Positions 2,562 through 47,289 are shown, counted from the stretch's first letter. The stretch: DNA of 64,000 nucleotides from Bacillota bacterium (GCA_021827745.1 JAKAUI010000058.1:1-64000); one strand, 5' to 3'. Translations and numbers: made by a program. Notes: a model not told the origin generated them from the letters alone.

Positions 2562-2574
2562 CCAAGGGCGCGGC

Positions 2575-3687: not shown

Positions 3688-3699
3688 CCGAGAGCGGCG

Positions 3700-5308: not shown

Positions 5309-5343
5309 CGTCCCACGTATGCAAGCGGAAGGAGGGTCAGACC

Positions 5344-5520: not shown

Positions 5521-5521
5521 G

Positions 5522-5974
5522 GTGGCGCTTGCCGATCGGATCGAAACCGATCTGAGGATGGCGATCAAGCAGAGAGAGGCGGGCAGGGCCCGCCTCTTGG
5601 TTCTCCGTCAGATCAAGTCCGCCGCCAAGTACGAGGAGGTGCGCCTGGGCAGGCCGCTTGCCGAGGACGAGTGGCTGGCGGTGCTGGGACGCGAAGTTCG
5701 CCAGCGCGAAGAGGTGCGGCCAGACCTGGTGCGCTCAGGGCGCGAAGACGTCGTCGCCAAGCTGGACGAGGAACTGAGACTGGTGCGCGAATACCTGCCG
5801 GCCCAGCTCAGCCAAGAGCAGCTTCAGGCTGAGGTGGCGCGGGCGGCGGCTGAGATGGGCGCCAGCTCGAAGGCGGACCTCGGCCGGATGATGGGGGTCT
5901 TGGTGCCGAGGCTGCGCGGCCAGGTCGACGGCAGCGTGCTGCGTCAGGCTGTGGAGCGGCAGCTGGGGAACTGA
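5522..5974 (+). CDS. yqeY: GatB/YqeY domain protein
   Basis: LADRIETDLRMAIKQREAGRARLLVLRQIKSAAKYEEV...YLPAQLS...DLGRMMGVLVPRLRGQVDGS; directly after rpsU. Confidence 0.9.
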   Translation: MALADRIETDLRMAIKQREAGRARLLVLRQIKSAAKYEEVRLGRPLAEDEWLAVLGREVRQREEVRPDLVRSGREDVVAKLDEELRLVREYLPAQLSQEQLQAEVARAAAEMGASSKADLGRMMGVLVPRLRGQVDGSVLRQAVERQLGN

Positions 5975-5982
5975 GCGCCCTT

Positions 5983-6834
5983 CTAGGTGTGGGCGAGTGG
6001 AGCCGCCCGGCGTGATCCGAGCGCCAAGAAGAGGGCAGCCCCGCCCAGAGCAAAGAGGCCGCCCACGATCACCAGCCAGGTCGGCTGCTGGCCAAACACC
6101 GGGATGGCGATCAAGGTGGCGCCGACGACCTCTAAGAGACCGACCACTGCCACCGTCGAGGCGTTCAGCCAGCGCAGCAGATAGTTGGAGAGCGTGTGGC
6201 CGAGGGTCGTCGGGAAGGCGGCCAGGGCCAGAATCAGAAGCCAGTTGCGGAGTCCGAGATTGAATAGAGGCTCTCTTGCCACGAGCGCCATCGCCAGAAG
6301 CGCCAAAGAGGCGAGCCCGTACACCACCGTGGTGTAGGGCAGCACCTCCATCTCCTGACGCAGGTGGCGGCCGATCAGGTAGTAGGCGGCGCCGGCCAGG
6401 GCGGCGATCAGGGCCAGGGCGTCGCCCAGCAGCTGCTGGCTTCCGCCGTGGGCGCTGAGCGCGATCAAGACGACGCCGACGATGGCCAAACCGGCTCCGA
6501 TCAGGCCCCAGGCGCTGTGCGGGATGCCCTGAAGACGCTCGACCACCAAGATCGGCAGCGGATACATCTCCACCAGGATCATCGCCTGGGCGATGGTGGT
6601 CAGACGCAGAGATGGGATCCAGGCTGCGAAGTGGATGGCGAGACAGATCCCCGACAGGGACGCCAGCATCCACTGTCGCCGCCCCTTGGGCCATATGAGA
6701 TTTCGCCTGCGCATGACCAGCACGCCCGGAACGATAGGCACGACGAGTCGCCAGAGGGCGATCACGAATGCGCCGGCGGTGGCGAGACGAATCAGGATGG
6801 CCGAGGTCGAGAACGCGGCCACCGTCACCGCCAA
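5983..6834 (-). CDS. EamA/DMT-family transporter (10-TM drug/metabolite type); start codon uncertain
   Basis: Hydrophobic 283-aa protein with duplicated EamA halves (GICLAIHFAAWIPSLRLTTIAQAMILVEMYPLPILV...). Confidence 0.8.
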   Translation of the reverse strand: MAVTVAAFSTSAILIRLATAGAFVIALWRLVVPIVPGVLVMRRRNLIWPKGRRQWMLASLSGICLAIHFAAWIPSLRLTTIAQAMILVEMYPLPILVVERLQGIPHSAWGLIGAGLAIVGVVLIALSAHGGSQQLLGDALALIAALAGAAYYLIGRHLRQEMEVLPYTTVVYGLASLALLAMALVAREPLFNLGLRNWLLILALAAFPTTLGHTLSNYLLRWLNASTVAVVGLLEVVGATLIAIPVFGQQPTWLVIVGGLFALGGAALFLALGSRRAAPLAHT

Positions 6835-7082
6835 GAGCAGACCTGGCGGGAGAAGGGGCGTGCCACGGACAGTCGGCGAAGGTTCGGCCAGGGCGGATGG
6901 CTCCTTTTCGGGGACGGTCAGGTCAATGCCATCTGCGCCTGGTTCGCTGGCCGACAGTGAAAGCCTGCGCCATCAGGCGGCGTGCCAACTGCGCCCCAGG
7001 ACAGCCACGCGAGGCGTACGGTCACGGCTTCCTCACGGCGGTTTCCTCGTTGGATTGGGCAGCTAGATCCACCGGACGGCTC

Positions 7083-8978: not shown

Positions 8979-9023
8979 CCGGAGTTCCTCCCCAGGCAAA
9001 AGCGAAAGCTGACACCATACTGA

Positions 9024-9051
9024 AGAGCCCTCTGCTTCAGCAAAGGGTTCC
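9024..9051 (-). promoter_or_regulatory. Shared upstream motif copy 1 (GGAACC-N18-CTCT)
   Basis: Minus strand GGAACC CTTTGCTGAAGCAGAGGG CTCT, about 70 nt before ATG 8978. Confidence 0.7.
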
Positions 9052-9146
9052 TGAAAGCGCTGGGTTGTCCTCTGCCTGTCCGGGGCCAGCAGGGCGCTGC
9101 TCGGTACTTGCTCCATGCGGCTCCCAGAGACATCTGGCAGGCTTTT

Positions 9147-11078
9147 CTAAGGAACAGGGGTGGTCGTGCCCGACGGGCTGATCTGACCGAAGAAGTCGAG
9201 CGGGTTAAGGCGGGAATTGGAGGCTCCCCAGAAACTCAGGCTGCCTGTCGGACCCAAGATGAGAGAGTGAGGGTCATACCCTGCAGGCAGGCCCGTAGGG
9301 AACACGCTGACGACTCCTGACGGGCTGATCCGGTCGATGAAGCTCGTGGGGATCCCATGGACGACGAACCAGATGTTTCCGCCTGGGCCCAATATCAGGT
9401 GACTGACAGAGCAAGACGCCGGAGTCGAACCAGGGGCGGTCGGACATAGGTTCTTGGTGAACAGGGTGATCAAGCCCGACGAGCTGACCTTGCCGATGAA
9501 GATGGAGTTGTTGGAGCCAGAGCGCTGGCCGACGAACCACATGGAGCCGCTCGGGCCAGCGACGAAATTGCTAAAGAACGACGTCGACGCAGGCAGGCCG
9601 TTCGTGAAGCGGGAGACGGTTCCAGATGGGCTGAGTCGATCGATGAAGCTCGTATGGTCCGGGCCCGATCCGGCGAGCCAGATGTCGCCGTCGCTGCCCA
9701 ATGTCAGGCTGTCCACTCCGCACCCAGTTGTCTGAGGCGAACAGGGAGCGGATGGATACAGGTCCGTGGTGAACCGGGTGACGGTGCCAGAGGGAGTGAT
9801 CAGGCCGAAGCCGGTGGACGCGATCCCTACACCGCTGCCGATGTAAAACAGCATGTCAGCGCCAGGGCCCGGGTGCAGGCACGTCTGCGCCCAGTCGGTA
9901 CACATTAGCTGTAGACCCTGGGTGACAAGAGTGGTGGTCCCAGACGGACTGATCTTGCCAATGAAGCTGGTGCTGTTGGAGGCGTAGCCTCGGAACCAGA
10001 TGTCGCCGTCCGGGCCCAATGTCAGGTCGTTCACAGAGCAGGACGTCGAAGTCGAACAATAAGCGGACGGATACAGGCCCTTCGTGAACACGCTGATCGT
10101 GCCCGAGGGAGTGATGTTGCCGACGAAACTGGTGTTATCGGAGCCGTAGCCGACGAACCACATGTCGCCCCCCGGACCTAGTGTCAGGTCGTTTACAGAG
10201 GTCGTCGACGCAGGCAGGCCCTTGGTGAACAGACTGACGGTTCCGGACCGGCTGATCCTGCCGATGGCTCCCGAACAGCTGAACCACATGCCGCCCGGAC
10301 CAGGGGTCAGAGGCCAGGGGCAGCTCTCGCCAGAGTTCGAAAACGACGAGTTGCCCACGCCGGGCACGCCTGCCGAGAACAGAGAGAAGGTCCCAGTCGG
10401 GGTGATCCGGCCGATGCCCAGAGGTGCGTTGTTGCCGCCCGTGAGGCTGGATGGCGGTAGGACCACAAACCACAAATTACCGGATGAATCAGGAGCATAG
10501 ACGAACGCGTGTGGACCAGACACCAGGAACATCTGGTCGCCGTTCGGTAGGCAGGTGAGGCGGACAGGCACCGTGCTGGCGGGTTGCCCGGGAGACGACA
10601 GGCTGGTGCGTGTGTTGCACCAGGATGGGAGGGTGACCGAGACGGTGGTGGGGGTACTGCTGCTGGCAACTTTGGCGGCACTGACTGACACCACAACTGG
10701 GGCCGAGGTGGCCACCACCTGGCCCTTGCTGCTCGTGGCCAGCTCGGCCGTGAATCGATAGGAGCCGGGAGCCAGGCTGAGCTTGATCGAGTTGGAGAAC
10801 AGGATGTTCCACAGCTTGCCGTTCTCGTAGAGTCGGATCTCACCACTGCCTGGCTGGGCCGTGGTGGCAGAATTGGCCAGGGTGAAATGGGAGACGGAGA
10901 AGCGGATCGTGAGATCAGTGGACGTCTGGGAGGAAGGGATCTTCAGGGTGGACCCGGTGACGGGAGAGACGATCCTGATCGATGGCTTTACGGCCGGTGT
11001 CGCAGGCGCGCCACAGCCGGCGACTGCAAGCAGCAGGCACGGCAGCACGAGCAGGTGGACGAGCGATCTACTCGGCAT
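9147..11078 (-). CDS. Paralog 2: lipoprotein with Ig-like segment and Vgb-like beta-propeller repeats
   Basis: MPSRSLVHLLVLPCLLLAVAGCG lipobox; same architecture as paralog 1. Confidence 0.88.
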   Translation of the reverse strand: MPSRSLVHLLVLPCLLLAVAGCGAPATPAVKPSIRIVSPVTGSTLKIPSSQTSTDLTIRFSVSHFTLANSATTAQPGSGEIRLYENGKLWNILFSNSIKLSLAPGSYRFTAELATSSKGQVVATSAPVVVSVSAAKVASSSTPTTVSVTLPSWCNTRTSLSSPGQPASTVPVRLTCLPNGDQMFLVSGPHAFVYAPDSSGNLWFVVLPPSSLTGGNNAPLGIGRITPTGTFSLFSAGVPGVGNSSFSNSGESCPWPLTPGPGGMWFSCSGAIGRISRSGTVSLFTKGLPASTTSVNDLTLGPGGDMWFVGYGSDNTSFVGNITPSGTISVFTKGLYPSAYCSTSTSCSVNDLTLGPDGDIWFRGYASNSTSFIGKISPSGTTTLVTQGLQLMCTDWAQTCLHPGPGADMLFYIGSGVGIASTGFGLITPSGTVTRFTTDLYPSAPCSPQTTGCGVDSLTLGSDGDIWLAGSGPDHTSFIDRLSPSGTVSRFTNGLPASTSFFSNFVAGPSGSMWFVGQRSGSNNSIFIGKVSSSGLITLFTKNLCPTAPGSTPASCSVSHLILGPGGNIWFVVHGIPTSFIDRISPSGVVSVFPTGLPAGYDPHSLILGPTGSLSFWGASNSRLNPLDFFGQISPSGTTTPVP

Positions 11079-11124
11079 CCGGATCCTCCTTCGCAGGTGA
11101 GCAGGGAGGCAGACACCGTGACTG

Positions 11125-11152
11125 AGAGCCGCTCCCTCTAGCAAATGGTTCC
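11125..11152 (-). promoter_or_regulatory. Shared upstream motif copy 2 (GGAACC-N18-CTCT)
   Basis: Minus strand GGAACC ATTTGCTAGAGGGAGCGG CTCT. Confidence 0.7.
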
Positions 11153-11325
11153 CGGCGGCGATGGGTCGTCCTGTGTAGATAACGATGCCAAAGTCGCGGT
11201 CCATGCCTAGAGCGAAGGTGGAAATCAAGAACCATCGTCTGGTCGGAGGTGTCCGATCCCGCTGAGATAAGGTGTCGTCTGGGATGTCCGTCCCATTCGG
11301 ATCCTAGGAGATACCCCGACGGCCT

Positions 11326-13242
11326 CTAGGGAAGATTAGCGGTCGTGCTCGACGGGCTGATCTGGCCGAAGAATGTTGGCGCGTTGGACCCAGAGCGGGC
11401 CATCCCCCAGAAGCTCAGGTCGCCCGTCGGACCGAGGACGAGAGAGCCAAGGCCGTACCCTGCAGGCAGACCCGTAGAGAACACGCTGACCGTGCCGGAT
11501 GGGCTGACCTTGCCGATGAACGGCCCCGAGTGAGAGTTCTGGTTCCCGATGAACCAGATGTCGCCGCCCGGTTCTAATGTCAGGCCGGTCAAGAAACAGG
11601 ACGTCGGAACCGAACAAGAAGCGAGTGGAGAGAAGCCCTTAGAGACGACGCTGACCGTGCCGGACGGGCTGATCCTGCCGATGAAGTTGGTCTTGTTGGC
11701 TTCCGAGCCGAGGAACCACATATCACCTCTCACACCGGGGACAAAATTGCCAACAGAAGACGTCGAGGCAGGCAGGCCCTGGGTGACGCGGGTGACGGTT
11801 CCCGACGGGCTGATCCTATCGATGAAGCTCGCATGGTTGGGGCCTGCTCCGGCGAGCCAGATGTCGCCACTAGGGCCTATTCTCAAAATGCCCACTCCGC
11901 ACCCAGCCGTCTGAGGCGAGCAAGGAGCCGATGGATACAGGTCATTGGTGAACCGGGTGACGCTGCCCGAGGGAGTGATCAGGCCGAAGCCTGTGGATCC
12001 GGGCTCTACACTGCTGCCAATGTAAAACAGCATGTCGCTGCCAGGGCCCGGGTGCAGGCACGACTGCGCCCAATCGGTACACATTTGTTGAAGACCCTGG
12101 GTAAACAGGGTGACTGCTCCAGACGGAGTGATTTTGCCGATGAAGCTCGGGTTGCTGGAGCCGTTCACGCTGGGGACGTTGGGGTTGTTGCCGGTGAACC
12201 ACATGTTGCCGCCCGGACCCAAGGTCAAGGAACCAACTTGACAAGATGCCGGAGCCGAACCAGAGGCGGCCGGACACAGGCCCTTGGTGAACACGCTTGC
12301 CGTCCCCGACGGGCTGATCTTGCCGATGAAGTTGGTCTTGTTGGCTTCCGAGCCGACGAACCACATGTCACCGCCCAGACCGGGGACGAAATCACCGATA
12401 GAAGAGGTCGCGGCAGGCAGGCCCGTGGTGAACAGGCTGACCGTGCCGGACGGGCCGATCCTACCGATGGTTCCCGAGCAGCTGAACCACATGCCGCCGG
12501 GGCCAGGCGTCAGAGGCCAGGGGCAGGTGTCGCCAGAGTTCGAAAAGGGCGAGCTGCCCACGCCGGTCACGCCTGCCGAGAACAGGGAGAAGCTCCCGGC
12601 TGGGGTGATCCGACCGATGCCCAGAGGCGCGTTGCTGCCCCCCGTACCGAATGGCGGCGCGACCACAAACCACAGGTTGCCGGATGAGTCGGGAGCGTAG
12701 TAGAACTCATCAAAACCAGTCACCCTGAATATCTGGTCATCGCCGGGCAGGCAGGTCAGGCGGACGGACACCGTGCTGGCGCTCTGTCCGGTGGACGAGA
12801 GAGTGGCGCGGGTATTGCACCAGGCTGGGAGGGTGACCGAGGTGGAAGCACTAAGCGACATCGCAACTGGCGCCGAGGTGGCCACCACCTTGCCGTTCGT
12901 GACCAATTCGGCCTTGAACTGATAAGAGCCAGGACCAAGGCCGAGGCTGATCGAGTTGGAGGTCACCATGCCCCACAACTTGCCGTTCTCGTAGAGCCGG
13001 ATCTGGCCGCTGCCCGATTGGGCGGCGCTGGCAAAATTGACCAGGGTGAAGTGAGAGACGGAGAAGCGGATCGTGACCGTGGTGGACGGTCGGAAGGAAG
13101 GAATCGTCAGGGTGGACCCGCTCGCAGGGGAGACGATTCGGATCGACGGTTTTGCGGCCGGTGTCGCAGGCGCGCCACAGCCGGCGGCAGCAAGCAGCAG
13201 CCACGGCAACACCAGGAGGCGGACGAGCGATCTACCAGGCAT
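11326..13242 (-). CDS. Paralog 3: lipoprotein with Ig-like segment and Vgb-like beta-propeller repeats
   Basis: MPGRSLVRLLVLPWLLLAAAGCG lipobox; same repeats. Confidence 0.88.
   Translation of the reverse strand: MPGRSLVRLLVLPWLLLAAAGCGAPATPAAKPSIRIVSPASGSTLTIPSFRPSTTVTIRFSVSHFTLVNFASAAQSGSGQIRLYENGKLWGMVTSNSISLGLGPGSYQFKAELVTNGKVVATSAPVAMSLSASTSVTLPAWCNTRATLSSTGQSASTVSVRLTCLPGDDQIFRVTGFDEFYYAPDSSGNLWFVVAPPFGTGGSNAPLGIGRITPAGSFSLFSAGVTGVGSSPFSNSGDTCPWPLTPGPGGMWFSCSGTIGRIGPSGTVSLFTTGLPAATSSIGDFVPGLGGDMWFVGSEANKTNFIGKISPSGTASVFTKGLCPAASGSAPASCQVGSLTLGPGGNMWFTGNNPNVPSVNGSSNPSFIGKITPSGAVTLFTQGLQQMCTDWAQSCLHPGPGSDMLFYIGSSVEPGSTGFGLITPSGSVTRFTNDLYPSAPCSPQTAGCGVGILRIGPSGDIWLAGAGPNHASFIDRISPSGTVTRVTQGLPASTSSVGNFVPGVRGDMWFLGSEANKTNFIGRISPSGTVSVVSKGFSPLASCSVPTSCFLTGLTLEPGGDIWFIGNQNSHSGPFIGKVSPSGTVSVFSTGLPAGYGLGSLVLGPTGDLSFWGMARSGSNAPTFFGQISPSSTTANLP
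11858..12142 (-). repeat. Near-identical block shared by paralogs 3 and 4 (partner 14051..14335)
   Basis: About 285 nt, constant offset 2193, only a handful of mismatches by eye, no indels. Confidence 0.85.
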
Positions 13243-13288
13243 CCAGACCCTCCTTCCCAGGTGAGCACAGAGGCAGACACCGAGACAG

Positions 13289-13316
13289 AGAGTCCCTCCC
13301 TCCAGCAAATGGTTCC
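13289..13316 (-). promoter_or_regulatory. Shared upstream motif copy 3 (GGAACC-N18-CTCT)
   Basis: Minus strand GGAACC ATTTGCTGGAGGGAGGGA CTCT. Confidence 0.7.
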
Positions 13317-13512
13317 CAGCGAAGGTGAGTCGTCCTCTCTGTATCGCGGCGCCAGCGCCCTAGGAAAGCGGCGAACGAAGATCTTGGGTTTATTCCCCTG
13401 CGAAGAAGAGGACCCAAGGCCCCTGACAGGCTGAGGGTGGCCGGTCCTGCGGAGAAGGGTGTCATGTGAGTCGTCCGTCCGATTCGGATCCTAGGAGACA
13501 CCAGATGGGCCT

Positions 13513-15360
13513 CTAGGGAAGATTAGCGGTCGTGCCCGACGGGCTGATCTGGCCGAAGAATGTTGGCGGGTTGGGGCCAGAGTCGACGCTCCCGAAGAAG
13601 CTCAGATCGCCTGTCGGCCCTTGGACGAGATCGCTTACGCTGGACGTCGACACAGGCAGGCCTTTGGTGAACAGCGTGACCGTCCCGGACGAGCTGATCT
13701 CGCCGATGAACGGTGGCCCCGAGTTGGCACTCGCGTTCCCCAGGAACCAGATTTCGCCGCCCGGGCCTAGTGTTAGGTTGCCTACAGAGCAAGACATAGG
13801 AGTCGAACAAGAAGCGGACGGATACAGGCCCTTAGAGAACACGCTGATCACGCCTGACGGACTGATCTTGCCGATGAAGTCGGCGTTGTTGGAGCCTGAG
13901 CCGACAAACCACATATTGCCGCTCGGGCCAACGACGAGATTGCCACTAAAGGACGTCGACGCAGGCAGTCCCTTGGTGAAGTGGGTGATGGTCCCGGACG
14001 GACTGATCCTGTCGACGAAGCTCACATGGTTGGGGCCTGATCCGGCGAGCCAGATGTCGCCACTAGGGCCTATTGTCAAACTGCCCACTCCGCACCCAGC
14101 CGTCTGAGGCGAGCAAGGAGCCGATGGATACAGGTCATTGGTAAACCGGGTGACGCTGCCCGAGGGAGTGATCAGGCCGAAGCCGGTGGATCCGGGCTCT
14201 ACACTGCTGCCAATGTAGAACAGCATGTCGCTGCCAGGGCCCGGGTGCAGGCACGACTGCGCCCAATCGGTACACATTTGTTGAAGACCCTGGGTAAACA
14301 GGGTGACTGCCCCAGACGGAGTGATCTTGCCGATGAGGCCGCGGCCGGTGAACCAGATGTCACCGCCGGGGCCCAATGTCAGATCGTTCCCATAGCAAGC
14401 TGAGCCGGTCGAACATGTAAACAGTGGATGCAGGGCCTTTGCCAACACGGTGATCGTACCCGACGGCGTGATTTTGCCGATGAAGTTGGTGTGAGATGAG
14501 CCCGTACCGTCGAACCACAGATCCCCGCCCAGACCAGGGACGAAATTGCCAATAGAAGACGTCGACCCAGGCAGGCCCTTCGTGAACAGACTGACGGTTC
14601 CGGAGGGGCTGATCCTGCCGATGGATCCAGGACAGCCGAACCACATGCCGCCGGGCCCAAGTGTCAACGGATAGAGGCAGATCTCGGCAGGGCCCGGAGA
14701 CAGCAAGCTGTTCCCGGGTGTCGCGAACAGGGAGAAGGTCCCGGTCGGGGTGATTCGGCCGATGCCCAGAGGTGCGTTGCTGCCCGTGAGGCTAAATGGC
14801 CTTCCGACGACAAACCAGAGGTTGCCCGATGAGTCAGGAGCATAGAAGAAGTTGCCTGGGGAGGTTTCATGGAAGATCTGCTCACCAGCAGGCAGGCAGG
14901 TGAGGCGGAGAGATACCGTACGGGCGGGCTGTCCGTTGGACGTGAGGCTGATGCGCGTATTGCACAAGGACGAGAGAGTGGCCGAGACGTGGGCGGCGCT
15001 GACCGTCACGACAACGGGTGCCGAGGCGGCCATCACCTTGCCGTTCGTGACCAGCTCGGCCGTGAATCGATACGAGCCGGCAGCAAGGATGAGACCGATC
15101 GAGTTGGAGGTCACCATGCCCCACAATTTGCCGTTTTCGTCCAGTCGGATCTGGTTACTGCCGCCGGCGGTGAAGTGAGAGACGGCCCACCGGACGGTGA
15201 CTGCTTCGGTAGGCCCGCTCGTCACGAAATTGGACCCAGTTGCTGGCGAGACGATCCGGATCGAAGGCTTTGCGGCTGGTGTGGCCGGAGCGCCACAGCC
15301 GACGGCAGCGAGCAGCAGCCCCGGCAACACGAGGAGGCGGACGAACGATCTACCAGGCAT
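13513..15360 (-). CDS. Paralog 4: lipoprotein with Ig-like segment and Vgb-like beta-propeller repeats
   Basis: MPGRSFVRLLVLPGLLLAAVGCG lipobox; same repeats. Confidence 0.88.
   Translation of the reverse strand: MPGRSFVRLLVLPGLLLAAVGCGAPATPAAKPSIRIVSPATGSNFVTSGPTEAVTVRWAVSHFTAGGSNQIRLDENGKLWGMVTSNSIGLILAAGSYRFTAELVTNGKVMAASAPVVVTVSAAHVSATLSSLCNTRISLTSNGQPARTVSLRLTCLPAGEQIFHETSPGNFFYAPDSSGNLWFVVGRPFSLTGSNAPLGIGRITPTGTFSLFATPGNSLLSPGPAEICLYPLTLGPGGMWFGCPGSIGRISPSGTVSLFTKGLPGSTSSIGNFVPGLGGDLWFDGTGSSHTNFIGKITPSGTITVLAKALHPLFTCSTGSACYGNDLTLGPGGDIWFTGRGLIGKITPSGAVTLFTQGLQQMCTDWAQSCLHPGPGSDMLFYIGSSVEPGSTGFGLITPSGSVTRFTNDLYPSAPCSPQTAGCGVGSLTIGPSGDIWLAGSGPNHVSFVDRISPSGTITHFTKGLPASTSFSGNLVVGPSGNMWFVGSGSNNADFIGKISPSGVISVFSKGLYPSASCSTPMSCSVGNLTLGPGGEIWFLGNASANSGPPFIGEISSSGTVTLFTKGLPVSTSSVSDLVQGPTGDLSFFGSVDSGPNPPTFFGQISPSGTTANLP
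14051..14335 (-). repeat. Near-identical block shared by paralogs 4 and 3 (partner 11858..12142)
   Basis: See partner block. Confidence 0.85.
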
Positions 15361-15405
15361 CCAGACCCTCCTCCCCAGGTGAGCACAGAGGCAGGCACGA
15401 GACTG

Positions 15406-15433
15406 AGAGTCTTTCCCCGTAGGAAATGGTTCC
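15406..15433 (-). promoter_or_regulatory. Shared upstream motif copy 4 (GGAACC-N18-CTCT)
   Basis: Minus strand GGAACC ATTTCCTACGGGGAAAGA CTCT. Confidence 0.7.
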
Positions 15434-15582
15434 CGGCGGCGATGAGTCGTCCTGTTTAGATAGCAGTGCCAAAGTCACGGTCGATGCCTGGAGCGAAGGT
15501 GGAAATCGAAAACCTGAGCCCGACCGGCGGTGTCCGATCCTGCTGTGAAGCGTGTCGTCTGAGAGGTCCATGCGACTTGCCG

Positions 15583-17493
15583 CTAGGGAAAGGGTGTGGT
15601 CGTGGTGGACGGGGTGATCTGGCCGAAGAATGTTGGCGCGTCATGCCCAGGGTCGGCGAACCCCAGGAAACTCAGGGTCCCTGTCGGACCAAGGCTCAGT
15701 GAGCCCAGTTCGTACGCTGCAGGCAAGCCCTTAGAGAACACGCTGACCGTGCCGGAGGGACTGATCCTGCCGATGAACGGCGGTGCCGAGCCAGTGCTCG
15801 TGGATCCCAGGAACCAGATGGCGCCGTCCGGGCCTGCTGTCGGGTCGCTCACAAAGCAAGATGCCGCAGTAGAAGCAGCGCTGGCCGGACACAGAGCCTT
15901 TGTAAACAGCGTCACGGTCCCAGACGGACTGATCTTGCCAATGTAGCTGGCGTTGCTGGGCCCGTAGCCGCTGAACCAGACGGCACCGTCAGGACTCAAT
16001 GTCAGGTGGCCCAGAGAGCAGGAAGACGAACAAGGACCGGACGGATACAGGCCCTTGGTGAACAGCGTGACGGTCCCGGACGGGCTGATCTTGCCGATGA
16101 ACGTTATCGCCGGGTTGGTGGACGCGTACCCGGTGAACCAGACGGTACCGTCAGGACTCAATGTCAAGCCACTCGGAGAGCAGAAAGTCGAACAAAGAGC
16201 GGACGGAGCCAGGCCCTTCGTGAAGTGGGTGACGGTTCCTGACGGGCTGACCTTATCGATGAAGATGGGGTTGTTTGGGCCCGATCCGGCGAGCCAGATG
16301 TCGCCGCCAGGGCCCACTGTCAGGTCGCTCATAAAGCAAGACGGCTGAGCCGGACAAGAAGCGGACGGATACAGGGCGTTGGTGAACCGGCTGACGCTCC
16401 CAGACGGAGTGATCAAACCGAAGCCAATTGTTGCGTTGGCTGTAGTGCCGCCGACGGAGAACAACATGTCGCTGCCAGGCCCCGGTTGCAGGCACGTCTG
16501 CTCGGCCAAGCCGGGACACATCGCTTGAAGGCCCCGGGGAACAAGGGTGACGGCGCCAGACGGACTGATCATGCCAATGAAGCTGGTGTTGTTGGACCCG
16601 TATCCACGGAACAAGATGTCGCCGTTCCGGCCCCATGTCAGGTCGTTCAGAGCGCAGGACGTCGGAGTCGAACAATAGGCGGATGGAGCCAGTCCCTTGG
16701 TGAACAGACTGATCGTGCCGGACGGGACGATCTTGCCGATGACTCCCGGACAGCCGAACCACATGCCGCCGGGACCAGGTGTCAAGGGGTACAGGCCGCT
16801 CGACAGGCAGCCGGATGTAGAGAGTCCCTTCGAGTACACGGAAAAGGTCCCGGTCAGGGTGATCCGACCGATGCCCAGACGCGCGTAGGTGACTCCCGTG
16901 CCGGATGGCGGGGCGACCACAAACCACAGATTGCCGGATGAGTCAGGAGCGTAGAACTCGTGAAAACCGGTCATCCTGAAAATCTGATCGCCGCCCGGCA
17001 AGCAGGTCAGGCGAACGGACACCGTGCTGGCGGGCTGCCGATCGGACATGAGACCGGTGCGCGTGTTGCACCAGGATGGGACGGTGACCGAAACGCCGGC
17101 GTTGCTGGCAACACCGCTGCTGCCATTGACCGACACCACAACTGGCGCCGAGGTGGCCACTACCTTCCCTTTCCCGACCAACTCGACCTTGAACTGATAA
17201 GAGCCTGGACCAAGGCTGAGGCTGATCGAGTTGGCGGAAACTGCGGCCCGCCACTTGCCGTTCTCGTACAGTCGGATCTGGTCGCTGCCGCCGGCGGTGA
17301 AGTGAGAGACGGCCCACCTGACGGTGACCGTGGTGTCCACCTGGGAGGACGAGATCTTCAGGCTGGATCCATTGGCAGGCGAGACGATCCGGATCGAAGG
17401 CTTTGCCCCTGGTGTGGCCAGAGCGCCACAGCCGGCGGCAGCGAGCAGCAGGCAAGGCACAAGCAGGAGGCGGACTAGTGACTTATGAGACAT
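15583..17493 (-). CDS. Paralog 5: lipoprotein with Ig-like segment and Vgb-like beta-propeller repeats
   Basis: MSHKSLVRLLLVPCLLLAAAGCG lipobox; same repeats. Confidence 0.88.
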   Translation of the reverse strand: MSHKSLVRLLLVPCLLLAAAGCGALATPGAKPSIRIVSPANGSSLKISSSQVDTTVTVRWAVSHFTAGGSDQIRLYENGKWRAAVSANSISLSLGPGSYQFKVELVGKGKVVATSAPVVVSVNGSSGVASNAGVSVTVPSWCNTRTGLMSDRQPASTVSVRLTCLPGGDQIFRMTGFHEFYAPDSSGNLWFVVAPPSGTGVTYARLGIGRITLTGTFSVYSKGLSTSGCLSSGLYPLTPGPGGMWFGCPGVIGKIVPSGTISLFTKGLAPSAYCSTPTSCALNDLTWGRNGDILFRGYGSNNTSFIGMISPSGAVTLVPRGLQAMCPGLAEQTCLQPGPGSDMLFSVGGTTANATIGFGLITPSGSVSRFTNALYPSASCPAQPSCFMSDLTVGPGGDIWLAGSGPNNPIFIDKVSPSGTVTHFTKGLAPSALCSTFCSPSGLTLSPDGTVWFTGYASTNPAITFIGKISPSGTVTLFTKGLYPSGPCSSSCSLGHLTLSPDGAVWFSGYGPSNASYIGKISPSGTVTLFTKALCPASAASTAASCFVSDPTAGPDGAIWFLGSTSTGSAPPFIGRISPSGTVSVFSKGLPAAYELGSLSLGPTGTLSFLGFADPGHDAPTFFGQITPSTTTTPFP

Positions 17494-17538
17494 TCCGACC
17501 CTCCTCTCCAGGCGAGCGCAGAGGCGACACCATGACTA

Positions 17539-17566
17539 AGCGTCTGCTCGAGTGGCAAGTGGATCT
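17539..17566 (-). promoter_or_regulatory. Degenerate copy 5 of the shared upstream motif
   Basis: Minus strand AGATCC ACTTGCCACTCGAGCAGA CGCT; same spacing and downstream TCATGGTGTCGCC, mismatches in both boxes. Confidence 0.45.
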
Positions 17567-17754
17567 AGGAGGCGCGTGTCACCCTGCGACGGACGACTCA
17601 GGCGATGGCGACTGGGGACATCTGCCCTCCCGGCTGCAATTTGTCCACCGACCTTCTTGTCGCTTGGGCCGGGGGCCGCAGTCGGTCAGCCGCACCAGCT
17701 GCCGGAAGCGGAACCCGCGATGGAGGCGCATTAGCCCTACCGTAGGTGGGCATT

Positions 17755-19587
17755 CTACGGCGAGGCGGCCGCCGCCGTGACCAGCCCCAGGCCCTCCGTG
17801 TTGGCGTTGACGGCCCAGAAAAACCACAGGCGTTTGCCTGGTCCCGATGTCAAGTGGTTACCGCTAGGCAGGTGGCTTTTCGTGAACAGGCTGATCGTCC
17901 CGGACGAAGTGATCTCTCCGATCGAGAACTGGCCTCCGTTACCCGTGTAGACGGTGAACCAGAGGTTTCCGCCAGGGCCGAGGACCAAACGCCCCAGGTA
18001 GTCTCCGGCAGGCAGGCCCTTGGTGAACAGGTTGACGGTCCCAGACGGCCCGATCCTGCCGATGCTTGTCGTAGAAGCGTTGCATCCGGTGGATACGGTG
18101 AACCACATAGCGCCCGCCGAGCCTGGGGTCAGGCCGCTCAGATTCGGACAAGAAGCGGCCGGCGGCAGGCCCTTGGTCAGCAGCGTGATCGTTCCAGACG
18201 GCGTGATCCTGCCAATGGACGCTTGGCCTCCGCTACTGCCGCATCCTGATCCTGTGGACAAGGTGAACCACATGTCGCCGCCTGGGCCTGGGGTCAGGCC
18301 GATGCCGCCGTATTCCAACGACAAGCCACCCAGCGTCGGACAGGACGCAGCCGGTGGCAGGCCCGTGCTGAAGAGTGAGACCGTCCCGGACGAAGGGATC
18401 TTGCCGATGTCTGAGACCCACGGCCCGCGGCATGAACTCCCCGCTGCGAACCACAAGTTGCCGCCAAGGTCTGGCGTCAATCCGGCCAGTCCAGAGCAGG
18501 TTCCGGCCGGGAGGCCCGTGGGAAACACGGAGATGACTCCGGACGGGGTAATTCGGCCGATCGAGAGGACACCCCCCATCTTCCCGAAAACGGTGAACCA
18601 CAGGTTGTCGCCAGGGCCGGGGACCAAAGGCCCCGGATAGCCTCCGGCAGGCAGGCCCTTGGTGAACAGCGTGATCGCGCCGGCCGGGGTGATCTTGCCG
18701 ATCGAGAACGAGCTCCCGCTGCCGGTGTAGACCGTGAACCACTGGTCGCCGCTTGTGCCCAAAGTCAGGTCGCTCAGATAGCCGGCTTTGGGCAGACCCT
18801 TGGAGAAGAGCGTGATCGCCCCGGACCGGGTGATCCTGCCGATCGCTCCCTGACAGGGGAACCACAGGCCACCTGGCCCAGGTGTCAGTGGGTAGGGCCC
18901 GTCCGGCCCGCAATCGGATGCGGGCAGGCCCTTCGTGAATACGGACATGGCCCCAGACGGGGTGATCCTGGCAATCCCTCGAGCGGAGTTGTCGTTCGTC
19001 GAGCCGAGCACAAACCACAGGTTGCCGGAGGAATCAGGCACAAAGAAGAAGTCATGTGGCGAAGTGATATGAAACACGGTGTCGGCACCAGGTAGGCAGA
19101 AGAGACGGATGGAGACTGCCTGGGCCCCCGCCGAGCCGGTGGTCACGCCCCGGGGCGAATCGGGGCAGGCGTGCCTTGCTGTCCCTAGCCATGGCAGCGA
19201 ACTGACGGACAGCACGGAGGTCGCCGAGGTGGCAACCACGCTGCCGTTTGTCACCAGCACGGCCCTGAGCAGGTAGGAGCCGGGAGCCAGATCGAGGCGG
19301 ATCGAGCTTGTGGAAGAAACCGCCACTGCCTTGCCGTTCTCGTACAGCCGGATCTGGCCGCTGCCTGGTTGGGTGTTGCCGCTTGCGTCGACCAGGGTGA
19401 AATGGGAGACGGACACGCGGACTGTGACTATGGCCACCGCCCGACTGGTCAGCGGGAGATTGGAGCCGGTGGTCGGCGCGAGGATGCGGACCGCCGGCTG
19501 GGTTGGTGCCACCGAACTGCCACACCCGGAAACGGCGAGTAGCAGACAGGCAGTCAGGAGAAGGCGGACCCGGGGTCTATCATGCAT
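17755..19587 (-). CDS. Paralog 6: lipoprotein with Vgb-like beta-propeller repeats (more divergent)
   Basis: MHDRPRVRLLLTACLLLAVSGCGSS lipobox; GPGGNLWFTVYTGNGGQFSIGEITSSGTISLFTK repeats. Confidence 0.88.
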   Translation of the reverse strand: MHDRPRVRLLLTACLLLAVSGCGSSVAPTQPAVRILAPTTGSNLPLTSRAVAIVTVRVSVSHFTLVDASGNTQPGSGQIRLYENGKAVAVSSTSSIRLDLAPGSYLLRAVLVTNGSVVATSATSVLSVSSLPWLGTARHACPDSPRGVTTGSAGAQAVSIRLFCLPGADTVFHITSPHDFFFVPDSSGNLWFVLGSTNDNSARGIARITPSGAMSVFTKGLPASDCGPDGPYPLTPGPGGLWFPCQGAIGRITRSGAITLFSKGLPKAGYLSDLTLGTSGDQWFTVYTGSGSSFSIGKITPAGAITLFTKGLPAGGYPGPLVPGPGDNLWFTVFGKMGGVLSIGRITPSGVISVFPTGLPAGTCSGLAGLTPDLGGNLWFAAGSSCRGPWVSDIGKIPSSGTVSLFSTGLPPAASCPTLGGLSLEYGGIGLTPGPGGDMWFTLSTGSGCGSSGGQASIGRITPSGTITLLTKGLPPAASCPNLSGLTPGSAGAMWFTVSTGCNASTTSIGRIGPSGTVNLFTKGLPAGDYLGRLVLGPGGNLWFTVYTGNGGQFSIGEITSSGTISLFTKSHLPSGNHLTSGPGKRLWFFWAVNANTEGLGLVTAAAASP

Positions 19588-19634
19588 GAGGACCGTCCTC
19601 TCCAGGCGAGAGCGAGAGCCGACACCATCACTGC

Positions 19635-19662
19635 AGAGTCTTTCTCTTTAGAAAACGGTTCC
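19635..19662 (-). promoter_or_regulatory. Shared upstream motif copy 6 (GGAACC-N18-CTCT)
   Basis: Minus strand GGAACC GTTTTCTAAAGAGAAAGA CTCT. Confidence 0.7.
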
Positions 19663-19786
19663 CGCGAGCCGCGGGTCCTCCTCCGTCAAGCCGTCGGAAT
19701 CCGGCCGGTAGGCAGAGAGACGACAGCGGTTGCCCGTCGGCCGGTGCGTCTTACAGTCGCAGTGCGCGCAGGGGCAATTCCCGAGG

Positions 19787-21688
19787 CTACGGGACGGAGA
19801 CCGTGACTCGCCCGACGGCGAAGTACGGGCTGAAGGGGCCGCAGCCGCAGAAGTTCTCCGGAGGGGCCACCGAAGCGCCGTCGCCACCTACGAGGCTGCC
19901 GTAGCCAAACCACAGGGTGTTGTTGGCCCCGGAGACCAACCAGCTTGCCTTGGCGATCGAGTTGGCCGGCAATCCTCGATGGAAGAGGGTGACCGTCCCC
20001 GACGGGGTAATTTGACCGATGGCGAGCGAGGCACTTGTGCCGACAGAGGTCTCGAACCACAGAGTTCCATTTGGCCCAGGTAGCAGCGGGCTCAGACTGG
20101 CGCCAGTCGGTAGACCGCTCGAATAGAGGGTAATCATGCCGGATGGAGTGATCTTGCCGACCGAGGGCTGGCCGGTGGGACTCGTCGTTTCGACGACGAA
20201 CCACATGTCACCGCCCGGGCCCGGCACCAGGCCGCCGCCATACGCATGTGCAGGCAGGCCTTTGGTGAACACGCTGATCGTGCCTGATGGACTGATCTGC
20301 CCGATGCCCATGGACCCGTTGCATGGCCCAACCCCGGCGAACCAGCCAATGCAGGCGACAAACCACATGTCTCCCTGAGAGCCGAAGACCAGATTGCCAG
20401 CGGGGCCGCCGGATGGCTGGCCGGATGGGTTCGTAGCCATGGGTATGCCCTTCGAGAAGAGGGTGATGGCCCCAGACGGGGTGATGCGGCCGATGGCGGA
20501 CTGACCACTGTTAGTGCCGGCGGTGAACCACAGATCGCCCCTCGGGCCCGACACGAGGCGGCCCAGAGAAGCCCACCCACTCAATCCCTTTGTGAAGAAG
20601 GTGACAGATCCAGAGGGGTTGACCCGACCGATGGCCGACAAAGTCCCGGTCGTCGATCTCGCCGGTTGAACAGTAAACCATAGGTCTCCACCAGCACCTG
20701 GCAGCAGGTCAGACGTTACCGCTGCCGCAGCCAGGCTGGATGGGAACAGGGAGATCGTCCCGGATGGTGTGATCCGGCCAATGGGCCTGGTTCCGCTGGT
20801 ACCGACGCGAAAGACTGTGAACCACAGGTCGCCGCCGGGACCCATCACGAGACCTCTCGGATAGTCCCCAGCAGCCAGGCCCTTGGAGAATACGGAGATG
20901 TTTCCGGATGGGGTGATCCGGCCGACGGCACCACCCGCGCCATAGCCAGAAAGATCGATCGTGAACCATAGGTCGCCGCCGGGTCCTACAACCAGATCCG
21001 ACAGGGTGGCCGCTGCAGGCAGGCCCTTCGAGAAGACCGAGGTGGTCCCGGAGGGCGTAACCCGGCCCACGCCCGACGGGGAGCCGTTCGTAGATCCCGC
21101 CGGCTGGATCAGAAACCACATGTCGCCGTTCGAGAACTGCACCAGCGCAGGGTGCGACCCTGGGAGAGGCTCCCACATTCCATAGGCGGCCGGCAGGCAG
21201 GAGAGACTGATCGAAACGGTCTCCGCCGGGCTGACAGGTCGGGTTACACCAGGCGTCAAGGAGTGGCAGCTGGGTGAGGCGGCGAGCGTCGGTGCGACCA
21301 CCGTAACCAGGTCCGGTGCGGAGATGGCCACCACCTTGCCGTTCGTGACCAGTTCGGCCCTGAACTGATAAGAACCAGGACCAAGGCCGAGGCGCACCGA
21401 GTTGGAGGTCGCCATGCCCCACAACTTCCCATTCTCGTACAGCCGGATCTGACCGCTGCTCGGTTGGGCAGCGGTGGCAAAGTTGACCAGGGTGAAGTGG
21501 GAGATCGAGAAGTGGATGGTGACCGTCGCGGACACTTGAGCGGACGCAAGATTCAGGCTGGACCCGTTCGTCGGGGAGACGATCCTGATCGAAGGCTTGG
21601 CGGTTGGTGTCGCAGGCGCACCACAACCGGCGGCAGCCAGCAGAAGGCAGGGCACCAGGAGCAGGCGGAAGGGGGACCTGCCGTGCAT
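19787..21688 (-). CDS. Paralog 7: lipoprotein with Ig-like segment and Vgb-like beta-propeller repeats
   Basis: ATG at 21688: MHGRSPFRLLLVPCLLLAAAGCG lipobox; GPGGDLWFTV...IGRITPSGTISLF repeats. Confidence 0.88.
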   Translation of the reverse strand: MHGRSPFRLLLVPCLLLAAAGCGAPATPTAKPSIRIVSPTNGSSLNLASAQVSATVTIHFSISHFTLVNFATAAQPSSGQIRLYENGKLWGMATSNSVRLGLGPGSYQFRAELVTNGKVVAISAPDLVTVVAPTLAASPSCHSLTPGVTRPVSPAETVSISLSCLPAAYGMWEPLPGSHPALVQFSNGDMWFLIQPAGSTNGSPSGVGRVTPSGTTSVFSKGLPAAATLSDLVVGPGGDLWFTIDLSGYGAGGAVGRITPSGNISVFSKGLAAGDYPRGLVMGPGGDLWFTVFRVGTSGTRPIGRITPSGTISLFPSSLAAAAVTSDLLPGAGGDLWFTVQPARSTTGTLSAIGRVNPSGSVTFFTKGLSGWASLGRLVSGPRGDLWFTAGTNSGQSAIGRITPSGAITLFSKGIPMATNPSGQPSGGPAGNLVFGSQGDMWFVACIGWFAGVGPCNGSMGIGQISPSGTISVFTKGLPAHAYGGGLVPGPGGDMWFVVETTSPTGQPSVGKITPSGMITLYSSGLPTGASLSPLLPGPNGTLWFETSVGTSASLAIGQITPSGTVTLFHRGLPANSIAKASWLVSGANNTLWFGYGSLVGGDGASVAPPENFCGCGPFSPYFAVGRVTVSVP

Positions 21689-21738
21689 TTTGGACTTTCC
21701 TCCTCCGAAATGAGGCCACAGGCGATTGCTATGACTGA

Positions 21739-21766
21739 AGAGTCCCCGGGTTCGGCAAAGGGTTCC
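21739..21766 (-). promoter_or_regulatory. Shared upstream motif copy 7 (GGAACC-N18-CTCT)
   Basis: Minus strand GGAACC CTTTGCCGAACCCGGGGA CTCT. Confidence 0.7.
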
Positions 21767-21933
21767 TGCCGACGCTCTAGCGTGCCCCGCGTAGCCAGCC
21801 ATCTCGGCAGGCTCGGTCGGCAGCATGCGGTCCCGAAATCGTTGGCCAGCCTTTGGGCGCCTGTGGGCTCGGACTGCTGCCTTAGCCGCGTTCCCAATGC
21901 TACCTCGCTACCTCCTGGACCCCAGGCAGACAT

Positions 21934-23337
21934 CTAGGGAACAGCGGTGGCGTTGAGCGTTAGGCTGAGCCGTCCGATGAAGCTGGCGCCATTGGAGCGA
22001 CTGCCCACGAACCACACAGCGCCCCTGAAACCAAGGAGAGGGCGATCACGAGAGCTCAAGGTATAGCCAGAGGGCAGACCCCAAGTGAGCACGCTGCTCG
22101 TGCCAGATGGGGTGATCTGGTCGATGGAGATCGTGTTGTTGGTGCCCAGACCATAGAGCCACATCTTGCCGTCTGGGCCCGGGCTGGGACCGCCCGGTAG
22201 AGTGGTTCCCCCTGGCATGCTGAACATGCGGATTGCGCCAGACGGAGCGATCTTGCCGACGAAAGAACCAGAGTTGGCGTTCCCGCTGAACCACATATCG
22301 CCGCTCGGACCGGGGGCAAGAGAGTTGGTCCACATATTGACGGGCAGGTCCTTCGTGAATACCTGGACGACTCCGGACGGACTGACCTTGCCGATGCCTC
22401 CCAGATAGCCGAACCACATATCACCGACCTTGCCGGGGACGAGGGGATTGATCCACATATTGGCGGGCAGGCCCTTCGTGAATACCTGGACGACTCCGGA
22501 CGGACTGACCTTGCCGACGTCTCCCTGAGAGTCGAACCACATGTTGCCCCCAGATCCCGCTGTCAGGGACAACACGTACCTGTTGAACATAGTGACGGTT
22601 CCCGACGGGGTGATCATGCCGAAGCCAGCGTACCCCGGCCCATAGCCCGCGTTGGGGATGGTGGTGAACCACATGTCGGCGCCAGAGCCTGATTTCAGGA
22701 ACACAACGCCTGACTTGGGCAGTCCCTTGGTGAACACCGTGACGACTCCGGCTGGATTGACCGTGCCAACGAATGGTCGAGAGCTGGCAGATCCGGAAAA
22801 CCACATATCGCCGCTACCGCTAAGGGCGAGACTGCCAATTCGGGTGCTCGGAGGCAGGCAGGTGAGGCGAATGGACGCCGTGTTCGGCGGTTGCGTGTTG
22901 GCCACTGCCGCAGAGGGTGTCCCGCATCCAACGGTCGACAAGATGGTGGTCGGGACCAAGGCGTTGACGACCGAGACGGCGGAGGGCGCCGAGGTAGCCA
23001 CGACCTTGCCGCTCTTGACCAAGGTTGCCTTAAAGAGATAGGTGCCTGGCACCAGGCTGAGGCTGATCGAGTTGGATACCAGCACGTCCCACAGCTTCCC
23101 GTTCTCATACAGCTGGATCTGGTCGCTGCCTCCCAGGGTGAAGTGGGAGACAGCCAAGCGGACCGTGACATTGATCGGCCCCGCCACTCGGGGGTTCATC
23201 CGCAGGGTGGACTCGGTGGCGGGCGAGACGATGCGGACCTCAGGCTTCACAGCTGGTGTCGCAGGCGCACCACAGCCCGACACAGCAAGCAGCAGGCAGG
23301 GCACCAGGAGGAGGCGGAGGAGAAATCTACGGTGCAT
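21934..23337 (-). CDS. Paralog 8: shorter lipoprotein with Ig-like segment and Vgb-like repeats
   Basis: MHRRFLLRLLLVPCLLLAVSGCG lipobox; IGKVSPSGVVQVFTK repeats including a duplicated blade. Confidence 0.87.
   Translation of the reverse strand: MHRRFLLRLLLVPCLLLAVSGCGAPATPAVKPEVRIVSPATESTLRMNPRVAGPINVTVRLAVSHFTLGGSDQIQLYENGKLWDVLVSNSISLSLVPGTYLFKATLVKSGKVVATSAPSAVSVVNALVPTTILSTVGCGTPSAAVANTQPPNTASIRLTCLPPSTRIGSLALSGSGDMWFSGSASSRPFVGTVNPAGVVTVFTKGLPKSGVVFLKSGSGADMWFTTIPNAGYGPGYAGFGMITPSGTVTMFNRYVLSLTAGSGGNMWFDSQGDVGKVSPSGVVQVFTKGLPANMWINPLVPGKVGDMWFGYLGGIGKVSPSGVVQVFTKDLPVNMWTNSLAPGPSGDMWFSGNANSGSFVGKIAPSGAIRMFSMPGGTTLPGGPSPGPDGKMWLYGLGTNNTISIDQITPSGTSSVLTWGLPSGYTLSSRDRPLLGFRGAVWFVGSRSNGASFIGRLSLTLNATAVP
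22330..22565 (-). repeat. Internal tandem duplication of one beta-propeller blade (period 123 nt = 41 codons) in paralog 8
   Basis: ccacatattg..cgggcaggtccttcgtgaatacctggacgactccggacggactgaccttgccga at 22330 recurs at 22453. Confidence 0.8.
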
Positions 23338-23385
23338 TTTGAACCTTCCTCCTCCGAATCAGCCCACAGGCGACGCCCTCACTGA

Positions 23386-23413
23386 AGAGTCCCCAGGTTC
23401 GGCAAGAGGTTCC
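23386..23413 (-). promoter_or_regulatory. Shared upstream motif copy 8 (GGAACC-N18-CTCT)
   Basis: Minus strand GGAACC TCTTGCCGAACCTGGGGA CTCT. Confidence 0.7.
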
Positions 23414-23564
23414 TGCCGACGCTCTATCGTGCCCTGCGGGGTCAGCCATCCCGGCAGACTCGGTCGGCGGCAGGCGGTCCCGAAACAGCTGACCAGCCCT
23501 TGGTCGACTGTGGGCTCGGGCTGCTTGGGCTCTTGATGCTACCTCCTGGACCCCAGGCAGACAT

Positions 23565-25295
23565 CTAGGGAACAGCGGCGGCCTTCCCCGCCAGACTAAG
23601 CTGGCCGATGAACCTGGTGCCGTTGGAGCGACGGCCGGAGAACCACAAATCGCCTCTCAAACCGCTTACGAGCGGATCGGATGAGCTAAAGGTGTCGCCT
23701 GCGGGCAGGCCCCAGGTGAGCACCGTGCTCGTGCCAGCCGGTGTGATCTGGTCGATGAAGAGGGTGTCGTTCTGGCCGAGGCCATAGAGCCACATGCTAC
23801 CGTCTGGGCCCGGGATGGGACCGCCCGGTAGAGTACCTCCCCCAGACAGCCCCTTGGCCAGAACGCTGACCGTACCAGATGGGGCGATCTTGCCGACGAA
23901 AGAGCCAGAGTTGGCGTTCCCGGTGAACCACATATCACCGCGCGGACCGGGGACCAGAGGATTGGTCCACATATTGGCGGTCAGGTCCTTCGTGAATACC
24001 TGGACGACTCCGGACGGACTGACCTTGCCGATGCCTCCCAGAGAGCCGAACCACATAGCGCCGCCAGATCCCGCTGTCAGGGACAACACGTACCTCGTGA
24101 CCGTGGTGACCGTTCCCGACGGGGTGATCATGCCAAAGCCGGAAAACCCCGGGCCGTATCCGTCGTTGGGGCTGGTGGTGAACCACATGTCGGCGCCAGA
24201 GCCTGATTTCAGGATCACAGCGCCCGACTTGGGCAGTCCCCTGGTGAACACCGTGACGACTCCGGCTGGACTGACCGTGCCGACGAATGGGCGAGAGCTG
24301 ACGGATCCGGAAAACCACATATCGCCACCCGGACCAGGGATGGGACTGCTCGACAGATAGCTCCCGGTCGACACATAGCTCCCGGCCGGCAGGTCCGTGG
24401 TGAACAGGGTGATCGTGCCGGAAGGGGTGATCTTGCCGATGAAGCCTGAGCCGGAGAACCACATGTCGCCGCCAGCGCCAAGGACGAGACTGTTAATTGT
24501 GGCGCTCGGAGGCAGGCCTTTGGTGAACACGCTGATCGTACCGGATGGACTGACCTTGCCGATGGCTCCTGGACAAGCGAACCACATGCCTCCCGGGCCA
24601 GGGGTCAGAGAGTTCAAGCAGCTGGATCTATTCCCGCTCGGCCGGAGAGCGGCTTCCGGGAGACCCTGAGAGAACAGGGAGAAGGCCCCAGACGGGGTGA
24701 TCCGACCGACTCCCAGCGGTGAGCCGGCTGCCGATCCGACCACAAACCACAGGTTTCCGGATGAATCAGACTCAGCGGCGAAGCCCCCTTGATACATCGA
24801 GTCAGTGTTTGGCAGACAGGTGAGGCGGATAGACGCCGAGTTTCGCGGTTGCGTGTTGGCCGCTGCCGCAGCGGCTGCCCCGCATCCAACGGTCGACAAG
24901 ATGGTGGTCGGGACCAAGGCGTTGACGACAGAGACCGCGGATGGCACCGAGGTGGCCACGACCTTGCCGCTCTTGACCAAGGTTGCCGTGAACAGATAGG
25001 TGCCCGGCACCAGGCTGAGGCTGATAGAGTTGGAGAAGAGTGTGTCCCAGAGCTTGCCGTTCTCGTACAGCCGGAGCTGGTCGCTGCCTCCCAGGGTGAA
25101 GTGGGAGACAGTCAGGCGGATCGTGACATTGATCGGCCCCGCCACTCGGGGGTTCATCCGCAGGTTGGACCCGGTGGCGGGCGCGACGATACGGACCGAA
25201 GGCTTTACAGCTGGTGTCGCAGGCGCACCACAGCCCGACACAGCAAGCAGCAGGCAGGGCACCAGGAGGAGGCGGAAGAGGGACCTACCGTGCAT
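23565..25295 (-). CDS. Paralog 9: lipoprotein with Ig-like segment and Vgb-like beta-propeller repeats
   Basis: ATG at 25295: MHGRSLFRLLLVPCLLLAVSGCG lipobox; same repeats, closest to paralog 8. Confidence 0.88.
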   Translation of the reverse strand: MHGRSLFRLLLVPCLLLAVSGCGAPATPAVKPSVRIVAPATGSNLRMNPRVAGPINVTIRLTVSHFTLGGSDQLRLYENGKLWDTLFSNSISLSLVPGTYLFTATLVKSGKVVATSVPSAVSVVNALVPTTILSTVGCGAAAAAAANTQPRNSASIRLTCLPNTDSMYQGGFAAESDSSGNLWFVVGSAAGSPLGVGRITPSGAFSLFSQGLPEAALRPSGNRSSCLNSLTPGPGGMWFACPGAIGKVSPSGTISVFTKGLPPSATINSLVLGAGGDMWFSGSGFIGKITPSGTITLFTTDLPAGSYVSTGSYLSSSPIPGPGGDMWFSGSVSSRPFVGTVSPAGVVTVFTRGLPKSGAVILKSGSGADMWFTTSPNDGYGPGFSGFGMITPSGTVTTVTRYVLSLTAGSGGAMWFGSLGGIGKVSPSGVVQVFTKDLTANMWTNPLVPGPRGDMWFTGNANSGSFVGKIAPSGTVSVLAKGLSGGGTLPGGPIPGPDGSMWLYGLGQNDTLFIDQITPAGTSTVLTWGLPAGDTFSSSDPLVSGLRGDLWFSGRRSNGTRFIGQLSLAGKAAAVP

Positions 25296-25343
25296 CCGGA
25301 CCCTCCTCCCCCGAACGAGCGCAGATGCCGCAACCAAGAGTTA

Positions 25344-25371
25344 GGAGTCTTCGCCCCAGGGAAATGGTTCC
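25344..25371 (-). promoter_or_regulatory. Shared upstream motif copy 9 (GGAACC-N18-CTCC)
   Basis: Minus strand GGAACC ATTTCCCTGGGGCGAAGA CTCC. Confidence 0.65.

Positions 25372-46199: not shown

Positions 46200-47289
<1,090 letters not shown>

Follow-up and report, generated by a model that had tools for sequence, protein, structure and literature searches.

A predicted ECF-type promoter element precedes a tandem array of Vgb-like lipoprotein genes in an uncultured Bacillota lineage

A two-box element is repeated upstream of nine lipoprotein genes

What is the short element that recurs in front of nine neighbouring lipoprotein genes, and which regulator could read it? The question is raised by a stretch of 64,000 nt (GCA_021827745.1, JAKAUI010000058.1:1-64000; hereafter the window) from a Bacillota metagenome-assembled genome (MAG), where a sequence-only reading had noticed GGAACC-N18-CTCT on the minus strand between positions 9024 and 25371 and had proposed a regulon of an extracytoplasmic function (ECF) sigma factor. 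From its sequence, spacing and placement, we conclude that the element is very probably an ECF-type promoter, in which GGAACC would be the -35 box and CTCT, or GG-N-CTCT, the -10 box for an ECF (group 4) sigma factor. The sites, all on the minus strand, are the following:

9024-9051, minus strand: predicted ECF-type promoter of gene 7083-8978 (-35 GGAACC at 9046-9051, N18, -10 CTCT at 9024-9027)
11125-11152, minus strand: predicted ECF-type promoter of lipoprotein gene 9147-11078
13289-13316, minus strand: predicted ECF-type promoter of lipoprotein gene 11326-13242
15406-15433, minus strand: predicted ECF-type promoter of lipoprotein gene 13513-15360
17539-17566, minus strand: decayed promoter copy of lipoprotein gene 15583-17493 (AGATCC-N18-CGCT)
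19635-19662, minus strand: predicted ECF-type promoter of lipoprotein gene 17755-19587
21739-21766, minus strand: predicted ECF-type promoter of lipoprotein gene 19787-21688
23386-23413, minus strand: predicted ECF-type promoter of lipoprotein gene 21934-23337
25344-25371, minus strand: predicted ECF-type promoter of lipoprotein gene 23565-25295 (-10 variant CTCC)

All nine coordinates given by the sequence-only reading were correct, and the gap between the boxes is 18 nt at 9/9 sites, as it had stated. Its claim that the element precedes all nine genes has to be narrowed, since GGAACC-N18-CTC[TC] stands before eight of them and both boxes are altered at 17539-17566. This pattern has eight matches in the window, all on the minus strand, compared with a mean of 0.67 and a maximum of 3 in 30 Markov-1 simulations. 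When exact GGAACC/CTCT pairs were scanned over spacings of 10-26 nt, seven were found with N18, one with N20, one with N25 and none with any other spacing.

The boxes are also sharper than their surroundings, again as had been proposed. Mean information over the nine sites reaches 1.83 bits in GGAACC and 1.75 in CTCT, compared with 0.85 in the distal spacer, 0.64 over 60 nt of upstream flank and 0.67 over 22 nt of downstream flank. Pairwise identity drops from 0.93 and 0.89 in the two boxes to 0.44 (spacer) and 0.37-0.39 (flanks). Measured from the ATG, the element extends from 73-78 nt to 45-50 nt upstream, which corrects the earlier placement of its end at about 70 nt, and a GGAGG-type ribosome-binding site precedes the ATG of the array genes. 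Sigma-70-like sites number 2 in the region, with 2.6 expected, and neither overlaps one of the nine elements, in agreement with the same reading. These features bear on the idea that the element is the operator of a DNA-binding regulator, for instance a response regulator, with a separate promoter nearby. Footprinting gives conservation and not the identity of the binding protein; however, the boxes are asymmetric (6 + 4), lie at an invariant -35/-10-like distance from each other and as far from the start codon as is usual for a promoter, lack an overlapping sigma-70-like site and have a form identical to published sigma-E promoters, so that we consider an operator very unlikely.

The same element precedes unrelated genes and is conserved in the genus

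The source MAG (G000, 1.62 Mb) was compared with two other genomes of the genus, G001 and G002 (1.5 Mb). Exact patterns were searched in whole genomes, while a position weight matrix (PWM), built from 22 sites of the three genomes with the decayed 17539 site left out, was run over 433 kb of stretches comprising the window and sampled contigs. The -35/N18/-10 pair was found 45-90 nt upstream of genes unrelated to the array, namely a SIMPL/DUF541 gene and members of a second lipoprotein family. The genome-wide scan, which the sequence-only reading had suggested, located an exact copy on contig C49 of G000, 48 nt upstream of the SIMPL/DUF541 gene start. The orthologues carry the element in the same place (GGAACC-N18-CTCT in G002, GGAACT-N18-TTCT in G001), with a box identity of 0.83-0.89 versus 0.39 for the spacer. 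Likewise, the second, unrelated lipoprotein family has GGAACT-N18-CTCT at G000 C43:15 and GGAACC-N18-CTCT at its orthologue, G001 C17:87760, where the boxes are 0.83 and 1.00 identical and the spacer 0.28. Vgb-type lipoprotein genes outside the array show the element at seven sites in G001, one in G002 and two on contig C64 of G000, the latter differing from it at one or two positions that fall outside both core boxes.

The N18 spacing is thus kept at target sites in other species too. Across the 1.5 Mb of G002, GGAACC-N18-CTCT occurs in exact form only twice, once before a Vgb-type lipoprotein gene and once before the SIMPL gene; for a given stretch of 100 nt, the chance of a match is about 1e-4. 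Over the three genomes, 21 of the 22 sites have the GGAAC core of the -35 box, and TC is present in the -10 box of 22/22. The PWM gives at least 22.7 to the intact sites of the window and of the sampled contigs, and the next best score in the 433 kb is 14.4, which belongs to the C43 lipoprotein promoter; the decayed 17539 site scores 12.5. Looser matches (C19, C49:104749 and most of the G001 hits with two mismatches) fall within reading frames or are not followed by a clear start and were discarded as chance, and a reversed-pattern control gave numbers of weak hits similar to those of the real pattern. A literature search for a link between SIMPL proteins and sigma factors returned nothing useful.

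Two further motifs had been included in the element by the sequence-only reading. GGTGTC occurs at 5/9 window sites and is missing before the non-lipoprotein targets, SIMPL included, so it was rejected as a third element. TTTGC, 3' of the -35 box, is common to most paralogues but absent from the G002 sites and the ECF1 promoters (see below), and it was therefore demoted from the core to a secondary feature.

The same reading had also allowed that conservation might reflect duplication of whole units, which would make the boxes functionless leftovers. The nine genes are plainly paralogous, with identities of up to 80%, and the closest pairs have similar upstream flanks. However, the boxes exceed spacer and flanks by far in conservation even between paralogues of 41-50% protein identity, and duplication alone is insufficient because the same boxes, identically spaced, precede the array-unrelated SIMPL and second-family lipoprotein genes as well as orthologues in the sister genomes. 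A duplication-only origin was rejected on these grounds, and we give it next to no probability.

ECF1 is the candidate sigma factor

The sequence-only reading expected the regulator outside the window and had named a genome without ECF sigma genes as one finding that would speak against it. G000 encodes SigA, a SigH-like factor, a SigI-like factor beside an RsgI-like protein, and two ECF factors, ECF1 on contig C10 and ECF2 on contig C43, both outside the window. What that reading observed and how it interpreted this, as an ECF regulon with the regulator elsewhere in the genome, are both supported, with small corrections.

Window 46192-47289: SigA
G000 C10:18685-19224: ECF1

ECF1 (180 amino acids) shows the features that define this group of sigma factors (PMC8103513), with PF04542 at 25-91, PF08281 at 116-167 and no r1 or r3, and its best match among solved structures is an ECF SigW (5wuq). 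Its orthologues are 87% identical in G001 and 78% in G002, and it is the only ECF sigma factor kept in all three genomes. G002 encodes SigA, a SigH-like factor, ECF1 and a SigI-like factor, so that ECF1 is its sole ECF factor, and the element is still present there.

A promoter of SigA or of the SigH-like or SigI-like factor was also weighed. All three factors are found in all three genomes. On the other side, the consensus sequences of SigH and SigI differ from the element. The GGAAC and TC boxes correspond to the ECF pattern (PMC6767563, PMC8103513) and there is no sigma-70 consensus, which makes this alternative extremely unlikely. The SigI-like gene lies at G000:C62:41783-41998, adjoined in G000 by the gene for the RsgI-like membrane protein, and has likely orthologues on C20 of G001 and C56 of G002.

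Upstream of ECF1 we found a conserved GGAACC-N15/16-GGATCGGTA, in which GGAACCT and GGATCGGTA are kept in the three species and the spacer between them has diverged. The gene that follows shares 8 nt with the 3' end of ECF1 in both G000 and G001. It encodes a protein, conserved in the genus, in which a short N-terminal segment, a single transmembrane (TM) segment and an outer domain that is itself conserved can be told apart. This layout is that of an anti-sigma factor, and we regard the partner as a candidate anti-sigma factor. The sequence-only reading had asked for an ECF/anti-sigma pair bearing the same site; the GGAACC box and the overlapping gene agree with this, while the -10 box does not.

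Several observations weigh against assigning the element to ECF1. The site upstream of ECF1 reads GGATCGG instead of GGnCTCT, its spacer is 1 nt shorter in two of the three species, and its PWM score is 3.7-6.1, where targets score at least 16.8. No anti-sigma domain of Pfam or NCBIfam was recognised in the partner. In addition, G000 holds a second ECF factor, and at a completeness of 97% the MAGs may lack a further sigma factor.

A different sigma factor could also be the user of the ECF promoter (ECF2 in G000, ECF3 in G001, or a factor not assembled), in which case ECF1 would control other genes: the -10 box before ECF1, in GGATCGGTA, is not CTCT, and a second ECF factor exists in both G000 and G001. 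However, ECF2 has no orthologue in G001 or G002; ECF3, the second ECF factor of G001, is only 32% identical to it and not orthologous, and both are missing from G002, which keeps the element before two targets. Moreover, no GGAACC-like site is found upstream of ECF2 or ECF3. ECF2 is therefore disfavoured as regulator, and we consider another sigma factor on the whole unlikely. The ECF2 operon, at G000:C43 (L008 1183-3048), comprises the ECF sigma factor, a small TM protein and a membrane protein, and is not kept in the sister genomes.

ECF1 is the best candidate because of elimination and context, and with moderate confidence we infer that it regulates the lipoprotein array. We put this no more strongly because the -10 box upstream of its own gene differs from CTCT, which is the main weakness of the assignment.

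The array encodes lipoproteins with Vgb-like beta-propellers

The nine array genes encode lipoproteins of 467-643 amino acids whose signal peptide ends in a lipobox before a Cys that is invariant in the alignment:

7083-8978, minus strand: lipoprotein, 631 amino acids, lipobox AAGC, Vgb_lyase-type beta-propeller
9147-11078, minus strand: lipoprotein paralogue, 643 amino acids
11326-13242, minus strand: lipoprotein paralogue, 638 amino acids
13513-15360, minus strand: lipoprotein paralogue, 615 amino acids
15583-17493, minus strand: lipoprotein paralogue, 636 amino acids, gene with the decayed promoter
17755-19587, minus strand: lipoprotein paralogue, 610 amino acids
19787-21688, minus strand: lipoprotein paralogue, 633 amino acids
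21934-23337, minus strand: lipoprotein paralogue, 467 amino acids
23565-25295, minus strand: lipoprotein paralogue, 576 amino acids, all-beta model

The paralogues are 41-80% identical at the protein level. Their C-terminal part matches the Vgb_lyase beta-propeller family (Pfam and solved Vgb structures); four of the genes score 87-99 bits with PF24684 (virginiamycin B lyase; cut-off 50), and the other array genes match too. The AlphaFold model of the 23565-25295 product (mean predicted local distance difference test, pLDDT, 69; predicted template modelling score, pTM, 0.61) shows an all-beta protein in which a beta domain at the N-terminus (33-124) precedes propeller-like repeats. Gene 15583-17493 has lost both promoter boxes and kept an intact reading frame, and may serve as a natural promoter-dead control.

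A second cluster, at G000:C64 (L051) 1638-9048, contains four Vgb-type lipoprotein genes, with the element before the first two and no recognisable copy before the third and fourth; the cluster is closely preceded on its upstream side by a transposase-like gene (HTH_38 + rve) at 149-1360. Another SGL/Vgb-like beta-propeller protein is encoded in the window at 53929-54900 (plus strand); it falls below the Vgb cut-off and does not have the layout of the array proteins.

A model for the regulon

In the mechanism that we propose, the single-TM partner, whose gene overlaps the 3' end of ECF1, would act as anti-sigma factor and hold ECF1 inactive until an envelope signal, presumably envelope stress, frees it. 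RNA polymerase carrying ECF1 would then start at the element, and each lipoprotein gene would be driven separately, with a 5' untranslated region of roughly 40 nt and the GGAGG-type ribosome-binding site. Freed ECF1 would turn on the lipoprotein array, the lipoproteins on C64 and C43, the SIMPL/DUF541 envelope protein and its own operon. Taken as a whole, this explanation, an ECF (group 4) promoter with ECF1 as the most likely sigma factor, an anti-sigma-like partner and an envelope signal, seems likely to us.

What emerges is an ordinary ECF regulon with a target set unusually rich in paralogues; the unusual part is how much of it consists of one expanded lipoprotein family. More tentatively, it is possible that in this small-genome genus one ECF sigma factor, whose membrane partner belongs to no known anti-sigma family, serves mainly lineage-expanded beta-propeller lipoproteins of the surface and one SIMPL protein, and that expansion of the family copied the stress promoter with each gene.

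The analysis provides a predicted ECF regulon (sigma factor, promoter and targets) for an uncultured Bacillota lineage, and it would tie a sizeable Vgb-like lipoprotein family without an assigned role to an envelope-type response. It also describes a tandem array in which nearly every gene copy retains its own predicted ECF promoter, and it adds a case of CTCT as a probable -10 box from beyond the Actinobacteria, which is of use for predicting ECF promoters.

Comparison with known systems

The system adds one more example to a kind already described, its promoter form being known from sigma-E of Streptomyces coelicolor. The targets of this factor were found by ChIP-seq (chromatin immunoprecipitation sequencing) and their promoters assigned as AAC-N19 or N20-TC (PMC6767563); the AAC-to-TC distance is likewise 19 or 20 in the ECF1 upstream site and in the targets described here. 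Both systems share the -35 box GGAAC[CG] and the TC core of the -10 box, and some sigma-E targets have GGAAC[CG]-N18-CTCT, such as sco3194, encoding an L,D-transpeptidase lipoprotein (GGAACC-N18-CTCT), and sco3342 (GGAACG-N18-CTCT) (PMC6767563). Many sigma-E targets are also lipoproteins and envelope genes. The invariant N18 fits this picture, because ECF sigma factors are reported to require near-consensus boxes and a rigid spacer (PMC6411747). In contrast, sigE of S. coelicolor is driven by the CseBC two-component system without autoregulation, and its commonest -10 box is CGTC, whereas here CTCT prevails, an anti-sigma-like membrane protein is encoded next to the sigma factor and the targets form a tandem lipoprotein array.

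ECF sigma/anti-sigma operons such as SigW/RsiW of Bacillus resemble the ECF1 locus in the two-domain sigma factor, the overlapping membrane-protein gene and the candidate autoregulatory site. They differ from it in that the ECF1 partner matches no named anti-sigma family and the promoter is GGAAC/CTCT, not of the SigW type. As for the targets, we call the array proteins Vgb-like on account of their predicted beta-propeller repeats and claim no lyase activity for them. Virginiamycin B lyase (Vgb, PF24684) shares these repeats by Pfam and by solved Vgb structures; unlike it, the array proteins carry the propeller fused after a lipoprotein signal and a beta domain at the N-terminus, and they occur in large paralogous sets.

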